DNA from: Alphaproteobacteria bacterium
GTDB lineage: Bacteria > Pseudomonadota > Alphaproteobacteria > Paracaedibacterales > CAIULA01
Reading direction: 5' to 3'
Assembly: GCA_026400645.1 (NCBI GenBank)
Contig: JAPLOP010000027.1
Location: 1-64,000 of the forward strand
Length of the DNA: 64,000 nt
Part shown: piece after piece, positions 26,884 through 63,210 of the stretch
Position numbering within the stretch: position 1 is the first letter of the stretch
How the letters are laid out: each line of letters starts with the position of its first letter
The notes under the pieces: model-generated
Seen by the model: only the letters and a program-made list of their open reading frames with translations
Databases searched by the model: none
What the model was told of the DNA's origin: nothing
Program-made: the position numbers and the translations under genes

Positions 26884-27102
26884 ATGAAAAGATCGCTTGT
26901 TATTTCGGGGCACGCCACCAGCATTTCATTGGAGGCTGAATTTTGGGCAGCCCTAAAGGATATCGCCGAACAGAAAAACATGTCTATCGCGGCCCTGATT
27001 AAAGAAATTGACCTTGTTCATACGGCAGAAAAATCCAACGAAAAAACATCAAATTTGTCCAGCCGCATCCGCGTTTATATTTTGCAGCACTATATAACCT
27101 GA
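26884..27102 (+). CDS. Ribbon-helix-helix domain protein (RHH_4 type)
   Basis: 72 aa, preceded by a strong AAAGGAG ribosome-binding site. The pattern KRSLVISGHATSISLEAEFW followed by ALKDIAEQKNMSIAALIKEID and NLSSRIRVYIL matches the small alphaproteobacterial RHH_4 proteins, thought to bind DNA as dimers. Its target is unknown. Two candidates are in view: its own divergent gap, and the palindrome at 27307-27330 upstream of the ATPase gene. Neither is shown. Confidence 0.85.
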   Translation: MKRSLVISGHATSISLEAEFWAALKDIAEQKNMSIAALIKEIDLVHTAEKSNEKTSNLSSRIRVYILQHYIT

Positions 27103-27119
27103 GTGCGATATAAGAATCC

Positions 27120-27262
27120 CTAAAAACCTTACCTTTTCCTGGGTAATCCTGGATTGCTTCGTCGCTCCGCTCCTCGCAACGACGTTTTTGCGCGGAGGGC
27201 GAAGCCCGACAAAGCAATCCAGAAATTGCCCCGAACTCATGAAGAGTTATTGAAAATGGTAT
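27120..27262. repeat. Composite inverted-repeat element (locus D)
   Basis: The inner palindrome has perfect 11-bp arms (CTGGATTGCTT at 27149-27159, AAGCAATCCAG at 27212-27222). The right end GAACTCATGAAG, TTATTGAAAATGGTAT is a clean type 1 arm; the left end is too diverged to place exactly. It separates the RHH gene from the ATPase promoter. Confidence 0.7.
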
Positions 27263-30726: not shown

Positions 30727-31049
30727 ACAATCTTTATCCTTGGACGAAAACATCATTTATCTTGGATATATACCCCTTCCCGATCATTTTCCTCACACGT
30801 CATCCCGCGACTTGATCGCGGGATCCACATGGGCCCCTTGGTCAAGCCACGGGGTGACGGGAGGGTTGTTCGGCGGGAAATTATCTGAATTAAATATACC
30901 AGAATTTTTAGGTTAATTTTAGATTAAAAATTTTGCGTAGGAGCAAAAGGCCCAAGGGGTCCATCAAAAACCCTTGCGCAAAAAATGGCTCTGGAATTAC
31001 ACTTAACGTAAGGAAAGCCCAGAAACCCCTATACAGCAAGGCGCATCAT
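30727..31049. other. Divergent intergenic region between tssK and the enoyl-CoA hydratase gene
   Basis: 323 bp without a convincing gene. It contains a hairpin-pair repeat (30799-30858) and an AT-rich stretch (30885-30930) that could carry promoters. An open frame continuous with the hydratase runs back to 30933, but its sequence (KRPKGSIKNPCAKNGSG) does not look like part of that enzyme. Confidence 0.5.
30799..30858. repeat. CTTGA-loop hairpin repeat, intergenic pair (family 2)
   Basis: ATCCCGCGA (30802-30810) and TCGCGGGAT (30816-30824) form a perfect 9-bp stem around the loop CTTGA. A second, weaker half with GGTCAAGCC follows, and outer GTCATCCC / GGGGTGAC nearly pair, making a two-hairpin unit like that at 55624-55708. 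Confidence 0.7.
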
Positions 31050-50902: not shown

Positions 50903-51049
50903 ATACCATTTTCATGAATTATGGATTAGTGTTTCCTGGATGGCCACACTCTCTTCGTTCGTTCGCCATGACGTCATGGCGAGGAGGGCGAAGCCCGACG
51001 TGGCCATCCAGGGCCTGAACGATTGATTGATTATTCATGAAAATGGTAT
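50903..51049. repeat. Composite inverted-repeat element, best full copy (locus G)
   Basis: 147 bp with a perfect 16-bp terminal inverted repeat (ATACCATTTTCATGAA at 50903-50918; TTCATGAAAATGGTAT at 51034-51049). Inside, CCTGGATGGCCAC and GTGGCCATCCAGG are a second inverted pair around a centre with CGCCATGACGTCATGGCG, itself palindromic. There is no coding sequence and no transposase nearby. Lies between the helicase gene and plsC. Confidence 0.9.
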
Positions 51050-51064
51050 AAGTAAAACACACAG

Positions 51065-51092
51065 ATCCTCGGGTCAAGCCCGAGGATGACAA
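51065..51092. repeat. Family 2 hairpin repeat, intergenic
   Basis: ATCCTCGGG, loop TCAAG, CCCGAGGAT, then GACA: the inverted, near-identical mate of the unit inside the helicase gene about 450 bp away. Just downstream of element G. Confidence 0.8.
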
Positions 51093-51156
51093 ACAGGGTG
51101 TTTCCCCGGAAAATCATCTAGAATATACTATATAAACACAAAGGAATTATAAAAAA

Positions 51157-55029: not shown

Positions 55030-55764
55030 TTATCGGGGATGCATGATCCTGGCTTCCCTCAAATGATGATCCGCATCCAATTGAAGCACGCCCAGGTCTG
55101 GATTAAGCGATGCAAGCCGCAGGTAATGGCAAGCCTTTTTGGTATCGATTTTTGTCCCCTGGCCAGTTTTAAACATAATTCCCGCATTAAACTGGGCAGA
55201 ACCGCATCCCAGCTGGGCGGATTTTATGTAAAATTCAAGGGCCAGTTGCTCATCTTTTTTCACGCCGTGTCCAACCAAATAACTGTCGGCCAGGTCTTTC
55301 CATGCCAATGCGGATCCAAATTCACCGGCTCGTTTGAAATAATAATTGGCCAGATAATAACTTTTTCCAAGGCCGCAATATCCATTAAGGTACATAATGC
55401 CCAGCATGTGGAGCCCATCAGCATTATCAAAACGTTCCAGATGGCGCAGAAAAATCACGACATCCTTGTTATCATTTTGCACGTGATGAATCACATACTG
55501 TTCGACGTTCGCAAAACAGCTCGATGTTTTAAATAGCAGAAACAGAACGACGGGAATATAGCAGTTAAGGATTATTTTAATCTGAGTTCGGCGTAAGAGT
55601 GATATCAAAACAAGACCCACCGTAGTCTTCCTCCGGCTTGACCGGAGGATCCAGCTTATAATGATCGCTTTTTTTCTCTGGATCCTATGGTCAAGCCATA
55701 GGAAGACTCGCTTTTGTCTGGGTTTTATTAGCTTTTTACGTCGAATTGGGATTATTTTAGTCAC
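55030..55764 (-). CDS. Sel1-like repeat protein with a palindromic element in its 5' end
   Basis: 244 aa if read from the GTG at 55764, which has AAGGA upstream. The C-terminal two thirds are Sel1-like helical repeats (GLHMLGIMYLNGYCGLGKSY, AWKDLADSYLVGHGVKKDE, AQFNAGIMFKTGQGTKID), a fold that often mediates protein-protein contacts, including at host interfaces. A hydrophobic signal-like segment (NCYIPVVLFLLFKTSSCFA) is preceded by about 28 residues encoded by the family 2 element at 55624-55708. Alternatively the gene starts at the in-frame GTG at 55620, for which the element itself supplies GGAGG 9 nt upstream. Which is used cannot be told. Confidence 0.75.
   Translation of the reverse strand: MTKIIPIRRKKLIKPRQKRVFLWLDHRIQRKKAIIISWILRSSRRKTTVGLVLISLLRRTQIKIILNCYIPVVLFLLFKTSSCFANVEQYVIHHVQNDNKDVVIFLRHLERFDNADGLHMLGIMYLNGYCGLGKSYYLANYYFKRAGEFGSALAWKDLADSYLVGHGVKKDEQLALEFYIKSAQLGCGSAQFNAGIMFKTGQGTKIDTKKACHYLRLASLNPDLGVLQLDADHHLREARIMHPR
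55624..55708. repeat. Family 2 double-hairpin element inside the Sel1 gene
   Basis: 85 bp with outer arms AGTCTTCC / GGAAGACT. Each half is a hairpin: TCCTCCGG-CTTGA-CCGGAGGA and TCCTATGG-TCAAG-CCATAGGA; inner GGATCCAG / CTGGATCC also pair. No stop codons arise in the Sel1 frame. Confidence 0.85.
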
Positions 55765-55792
55765 CTGATGTCCTTATGCATGGGGAATGCTT

Positions 55793-62953: not shown

Positions 62954-63210
62954 AATTCCCTTGTCCGTTTTAACCAAGGCACCGACGGCCTTAGTGTGTC
63001 TGATGAATATCTGCTATCACCCATTGGAAATGAAGAAACTGGTTTGCCGCGCTCTCTTCGTTCGCTCGCAATGACGTCTTTGCGAGGATGGCGAAGCCAA
63101 CGAAGCAATCTAGTCAGCACCTTCAGGTTGAATGAGTATATAAATAGCCTATAGAAAATAATTCTACAAAAAATACGACCGAAAAAGCAACAAAAAACAA
63201 AAATTGACCT
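62954..63210. other. Intergenic region between the DAHP synthase and greA genes, with a repeat
   Basis: About 257 bp without a convincing gene. It holds a degenerate composite repeat (63031-63122) and AT-rich sequence (63130-63200) that may include the end of the aro transcript. No clear promoter was picked out. Confidence 0.45.
63031..63122. repeat. Composite inverted-repeat element, core only (locus I)
   Basis: Core sequence with TCTTCGTTCGCTCGCAATGA and GCGAAGCCAACGAAGCAATC, matching the inner part of loci C, D and H. Terminal ATACCATTTTCA ends are not visible. Confidence 0.55.

Follow-up and report, generated by a model that had tools for sequence, protein, structure and literature searches.

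The window analysed here, a stretch of 64,000 nucleotides from an alphaproteobacterial contig, contains a minus-strand gene for a Sel1-repeat protein and, within the 5' end of this gene, a short palindromic element (Table 1). The 184 codons that make up the body of the gene contain no stops or frameshifts and align with relatives across the Sel1 repeats. The initial annotation had placed a double hairpin at 55624-55708, and both hairpins are present there and coincide exactly with the inner double hairpin of the element. This 85-bp hairpin pair is, however, only the middle of a 173-bp element which is bounded by terminal inverted repeats (TIRs) and flanked by a duplication of TATTTTA. The initial annotation was accurate in reading an open minus-strand frame from the GTG at 55764, with AAGGA ahead of it, as well as a second in-frame GTG at 55620 that follows GGAGG at a spacing of 9 nt.

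Table 1. Features at the 5' end of the Sel1-repeat gene, with positions as numbered in the window.
Feature	Position	Strand	Remarks
Sel1-repeat gene, present reading	55030..55764	-	244 codons from GTG 55764; Pfam Sel1, 3 stretches
Native ribosome-binding site AAGGA, ahead of GTG 55764	55771..55775	-	
Putative MITE with IS982-type ends	55580..55752	-	173 bp; gene-strand frame open end to end
Terminal inverted repeat, ATCTGAGTTCGGCGTAA	55580..55596	+	motif matches
Terminal inverted repeat, opposite end, ATCCCAATTCGACGTAA on minus strand	55736..55752	-	alignment to other copies
Target duplication TATTTTA, copy 1	55573..55579	.	sequence inspection
Target duplication TATTTTA, copy 2	55753..55759	.	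sequence inspection
Head-to-head REP dimer, two hairpins (AGTCTTCCTCCGG-CTTGA-CCGGAGGATCCA and counterpart)	55624..55708	.	alignment, folding
GGAGG, 3' arm of hairpin, 9 nt ahead of GTG 55620	55630..55634	-	
In-frame GTG within element (alternative start, judged weak)	55618..55620	-	

The element has the features of a miniature inverted-repeat transposable element (MITE), being short, transposase-free and multicopy, with TIRs and a target-site duplication. The inverted repeats, for which the consensus is ACCTGAGTTCGACGTAA, are imperfect, and those of the window copy differ from each other at 4 of 17 positions; the repeat at 55736-55752 is absent from the list of motif places compiled with two mismatches allowed, and its position was set by aligning other copies. 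The 7-bp direct repeat is perfect on either side of the element, and a duplication of this length is typical of IS982. No transposase gene lies within the 173 bp. The whole element is predicted to fold as one long hairpin, both as RNA (-64.6 kcal/mol, z of -6.96) and as DNA (z of -6.82), and in each case none of 200 shuffled sequences equals it.

Together with the duplication the insert amounts to 180 bp, or 60 codons, which are in frame and free of stops, rather than the approximately 28 residues that had been proposed. The gene stayed open because 180 bp is a multiple of three and because the gene-strand frame of this copy has no stop. The proposal that the insertion keeps the frame open ahead of the export signal holds. 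In 10 of 10 relatives examined the 60-residue segment is absent and the protein starts directly with a signal peptide, as read from the sequence, that aligns with IILNCYIPVVLFLLFKTSSCFA behind the insert; these relatives share 33-46% identity and represent 10 of the 19 loci returned from outside the genome itself, the nearest genomes belonging to other genera. Relatives of the protein without its insert turned up in the whole-genome search, while none was found in the contig collection. Since the relatives begin at the signal peptide, the native GTG at 55764 with its AAGGA lies just before the insertion. The consensus of the family has a single stop in the gene-strand frame, a TGA in the terminal repeat, where the window copy has CCA. 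At 23 of its 173 positions the window copy departs from the consensus of the others, and since several other copies also lack the TGA, loss of the stop is by itself no mark of selection.

The assembly searched for further copies comprises 1.32 Mb in 42 contigs. BLAST with 55610-55770 as query returns 19 matches in it, the query locus counted and some of them partial. The end motif CTGAGTTCGACGTAA occurs at 59 places with up to two mismatches compared with 4 for a reversed control, and at 38 compared with 0 when one mismatch is allowed. Stretches fetched around these places contain 27 TIR pairs of 146-194 bp, all core types included, and 14 near full-length copies are of the core type found in the window; 22 lone TIR sites, judged by eye, resemble further short elements or isolated matches. 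The family lies mostly outside genes. At the limits used, 5 of the 27 pairs lie between exact direct repeats of 7 bp or, in one case, 9 bp, namely TATTTTA in the window, TATGATT in C24, TGATCTA in C13, TAACGTA in C1 and TATTTTCAA in C9 (36541). A few other pairs are one base off an exact duplication and the remainder have none, so that most pairs do not carry an exact duplication now; a copy in C2, outside the 27 pairs, has the direct repeat TTTGTCA. The alignment of 14 copies gives a consensus fold of 48 base pairs, of which 6 have changed on both sides at least once (covariation). The left hairpin is missing in two aligned copies (L013 in C36 and L015 in C23) and is altered in four by a nested small palindrome, GGGGAAACCTATAGGTT...CCCC (L005 in C13, L010 in C37, L011 in C9 and L012 in C1). 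Elsewhere in the window, 27097-27242 is a second element with degenerate versions of the same ends around the other palindrome type, and 50963-51012, 51064-51098 and 63039-63113 hold more copies or pieces of both palindrome types.

The inner part of the element consists of two head-to-head REP-like hairpins with CCA tails, and it forms a layer separate from the ends. REP dimers inside larger palindromes have been described, as have intragenic REPs, and the available account of CGTC-tagged dimers agrees with the dimer of the window in its 8-9 bp stem, 4-5 nt loop, CCA tail and head-to-head arrangement (PMC3733652). The GC-rich stem and short loop fit this type as well. Unlike the CGTC-tagged dimers of that account, which carry the tag CGTC, TGTC or CCTC, all 14 aligned copies have AGTC or AGTT as the left-hand tag, and the palindrome enclosing the dimer in the window is a transposon end with a target duplication (PMC3733652). 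The hairpin or the dimer is present in 17 of 58 genomes of the order or class, the genome itself counted. At each of 17 loci examined with REP hairpins in other genomes, there was no TIR within 150 bp at up to 4 mismatches; L035 was left out of this set since it matched the right arm of the query alone. The ends, for their part, also enclose other sequences. A second palindrome (CCTGGATTGCTTCGTCGC...) in the same genome has both ends at 11 loci, one end at 8 and no end at 8 (27 loci, from 28 examined among 69 matches, with L280, close to the start of a contig, dropped since its offset was wrong), and a genome of another family (G035) has a further core between the ends. Window positions 30791-30865 hold a CGTC-type REP dimer (CGTCATCCCGCGACTTGATCGCGGGATCCA ...) with no IS982-type ends adjoining. 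At L020, L021, L036 and L037 (genomes G036 and G020), REP dimers that lack these ends recur at a spacing of about 104-128 bp, resembling a tandem array.

The IS982-type transposase domain PF13612 has a match in 27 of the 58 genomes. Among 30 such loci examined, L118 (G023) and L120 (G009) are bounded on either side by the ends of the element, which lie about 1 kb from each other with longest frames of 242 and 243 codons between them; the remaining 28 lack such a pair. At these two loci the element shares its ends with PF13612 transposase genes, and a candidate autonomous relative with the same ends is present in two related genomes. The PF13612 search of the own genome, whose 42 contigs may miss it, found no intact IS982 with these ends. 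The sole PF13612 gene there sits between different ends (ACGCAGTGTGCAAG...) and was rejected as the parent, which is therefore not seen in this assembly. The element with the ACGCAGTGTGCAAG ends (about 1095-2095 of L123, near the contig end of C37) is itself an intact-looking member of the IS982 family. An origin of the hairpins through a RAYT was also rejected, as PF01797 (Y1 tyrosine transposase) has no match in the genome and is present in 5 of 14 control genomes. The window has no Rfam match at the gathering threshold and no tRNA remnant was found in it; the plasmids searched hold no similar DNA, and the TIR-pair pattern has no match in viral contigs.

The explanation that we regard as probable when taken as a whole, with some doubt remaining about the combination, is that the element is a non-autonomous MITE which carries a head-to-head REP dimer as cargo between IS982-type ends. 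An IS982 transposase acting in trans would have inserted it, with a 7-bp duplication, after the first 3-4 codons of a gene whose Sel1-repeat product is exported. Ribosomes would most likely start at the native GTG at 55764 and read through the element, and in the product the signal peptide would be preceded by 60 additional residues of strongly basic character. The consequence would probably be a weakened or altered export that is not necessarily lost, and GGAGG with the GTG at 55620 may yield a minor shorter product. Read this way, the window copy is a clear example, found in nature, of an exported protein whose N-terminus has been rewritten by such an element.

MITEs and REPs have been described before, and so have palindromic insertions that keep the frame. 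Sel1 repeats are present in EnhC as well. The QMITE2 element of Coxiella burnetii holds a REP, has direct repeats of 7-11 nt and forms an in-frame 3' extension of enhC; it resembles the element of the window in its length (150-190 bp), its internal REP and the in-frame extension of a gene, and its small copies resemble plain REPs (PMC5896051). The likeness is one of description, and QMITE2 differs in that its REP is of the GTAG type, no parental IS is named in the available text and its effects on genes are at 3' ends, whereas the element of the window is at a 5' end (PMC5896051). MITECca01 of Cardinium cOegib is an IS982-derived MITE, from ISCca4, and it too is short, transposase-free, mostly intergenic and present in high copy number in an endosymbiont, with IS982-family ends (PMC9769881). 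MITECca01 is unlike the present element in its length of about 240 bp, in retaining a little parental sequence and in sharing its genome with the parental IS, and the available part of its description makes no mention of a REP dimer (PMC9769881). Rickettsia palindromic elements (RPEs), also palindromic repeats, sit in frame in coding genes; the family of the window differs from them, on the accounts available, in being mostly extragenic (PMC10969869, PMC3733652).

The initial annotation suggested that the element may have created a new start site, and a rival explanation follows from this, in which GGAGG and the GTG at 55620 replace the native start and direct synthesis of a 196-residue protein with a slightly longer basic n-region (VGLVLISLLRRTQIKIILNCY...). 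The sequence needed for such a start is present, its 9-nt spacing is suitable for the proposal, and the signal peptide would be kept near the N-terminus. Predicted pairing with the anti-Shine-Dalgarno sequence is stronger for GGAGG (-9.3 kcal/mol) than for AAGGA (-4.8 kcal/mol); were the hairpin to open, this would speak for 55620. GGAGG, however, is the 3' arm of a very stable stem of -13 to -16 kcal/mol, with a predicted unpaired probability of 0 to 0.18 in the long fold, one bulged base excepted, and of 0.0 in the short fold. The 61-nt start-site fold reaches -20.7 kcal/mol at GTG 55620 compared with -2.9 kcal/mol at GTG 55764, and nine neighbouring gene starts fold at -1.4 to -6.7 kcal/mol. 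The idea that the hairpins could mask a ribosome-binding site is thus supported as far as the position of GGAGG is concerned, while regulation by such masking is not borne out here, and the masking argues against the new start that had been proposed alongside it. With GGAGG in a stable stem and GTG 55764 weakly folded, the native start is favoured. The contrast between the two starts is weakened by the 281-nt fold, in which the native AAGGA is predicted to be mostly paired too (0.03-0.21 unpaired).

Other copies of the GGAGG-N8-GTG module bear on the same question. In the fetched stretches the module is kept at 14 places with up to two substitutions, and 12 of these still end in GTG. Only the modules of the window and of C8 run in frame into a conserved gene; among the remaining 12, 11 frames reach a stop 4 to 49 codons on, and one of 105 codons overlaps an opposite-strand gene. 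At L003 1048-1512 (G000:C8:28603-29067, minus strand) the C8 copy lies immediately ahead of a DUF4280 gene with which its GTG is in frame, but that gene has an ATG of its own, 26 codons downstream. Given that 2 of 14 module sites enter a conserved gene in frame, the element was rejected as a general portable start. Among the 27 TIR pairs, a long downstream-side frame (182 codons) is present at the window copy only, and the C8 and C37 (2967) copies have long upstream-side frames that stop 1-2 codons past the element, the one in C8 being antisense to the DUF4280 gene. For the family as such, the survey of modules and frames thus does not establish a role as a portable start or in coding. Translation most likely begins at GTG 55764, with the 60-residue basic extension as its predicted consequence; 55620 would serve as a minor or conditional start, probably a weak one, and its replacement of the native start is rather unlikely.

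Less likely still is that the insertion shut the gene down or impaired it badly, that the gene has since been drifting, and that the open frame is due to chance. Function could suffer both from the stable hairpin close behind the start and from the shift of the signal peptide to about residue 62, most copies lie outside genes, and one in three insert lengths would keep the frame by chance. The intact 184-codon body, which aligns with relatives over the Sel1 repeats, speaks against such drift. That the element is a palindrome which codes for protein in the manner of those of Rickettsia, adapted to life inside genes, is very improbable: it is in frame and palindromic and encodes a basic peptide, and across the family few stops interrupt the gene-strand frame (12 of 14 copies have none or one, in 8 of the 14 at the TGA of the TIR), but frequent in-frame insertion in genes is not seen, as 1 of 27 TIR pairs has a long downstream frame and two more make up the 3' end of a frame, and the lengths of the copies (154 to 190 bp) vary modulo three.

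The preferred reading, that of a MITE carrying a REP dimer between IS982-type ends, describes an insertion event that is itself ordinary; the more interesting part is the pattern of ends and palindromes across phyla. A search of a species-genome collection with the paired-end pattern returned at least 119 stretches, 80 of which are listed. Among the matches listed are Calditrichota, Bacteroidota, Acidobacteria, Candidatus Odyssella, Methylococcaceae, Leptospiraceae, Desulfobacterales and others, with one Calditrichota bin supplying 23 of the 80. The interiors of the 80 listed stretches are predicted to fold much more stably than expected by chance, the median of the per-genome median z being -3.7 over 41 genomes (delimited by accession prefix), of which 30 are below -2 and 11 do not pass this value; control windows at the same loci have a median z of 0.01, and 13 of 160 are below -2. 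A 7-of-7 duplication is present in 16 of the 80 listed stretches and at least 6 matching positions in 29, taking the best of four offsets.

Less described than MITEs, REPs and the insertions themselves is a single kind of transposon end that surrounds palindromes differing from lineage to lineage, in Alphaproteobacteria, Bacteroidota, Calditrichota, Acidobacteria and others. The open-licence literature searched yielded no report of IS982-type ends of one kind that enclose a variety of REP-like palindromes in several phyla, and none on palindromic elements in Holosporales, on MITEs in Holosporales or on MITE, REP and IS982 together. As a tentative proposal, one IS982-like end type may act as a frame that has repeatedly taken up, across phyla, the REP-like palindromes common in the host lineage, and the REP-dimer type, with its outward GGAGG-GTG, might become a portable start when it lands before a gene. 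The folded interior perhaps aids the mobility or persistence of the element, and the well-folding interiors make selection of foldback interiors for mobility a testable idea. In five Bacteroidales genomes, where 30 loci were examined out of 171 matches, the palindrome enclosed by the ends there has both ends at 18 loci, one end at 7 and none at 5; by these counts the palindromes live inside these ends often, yet not exclusively.
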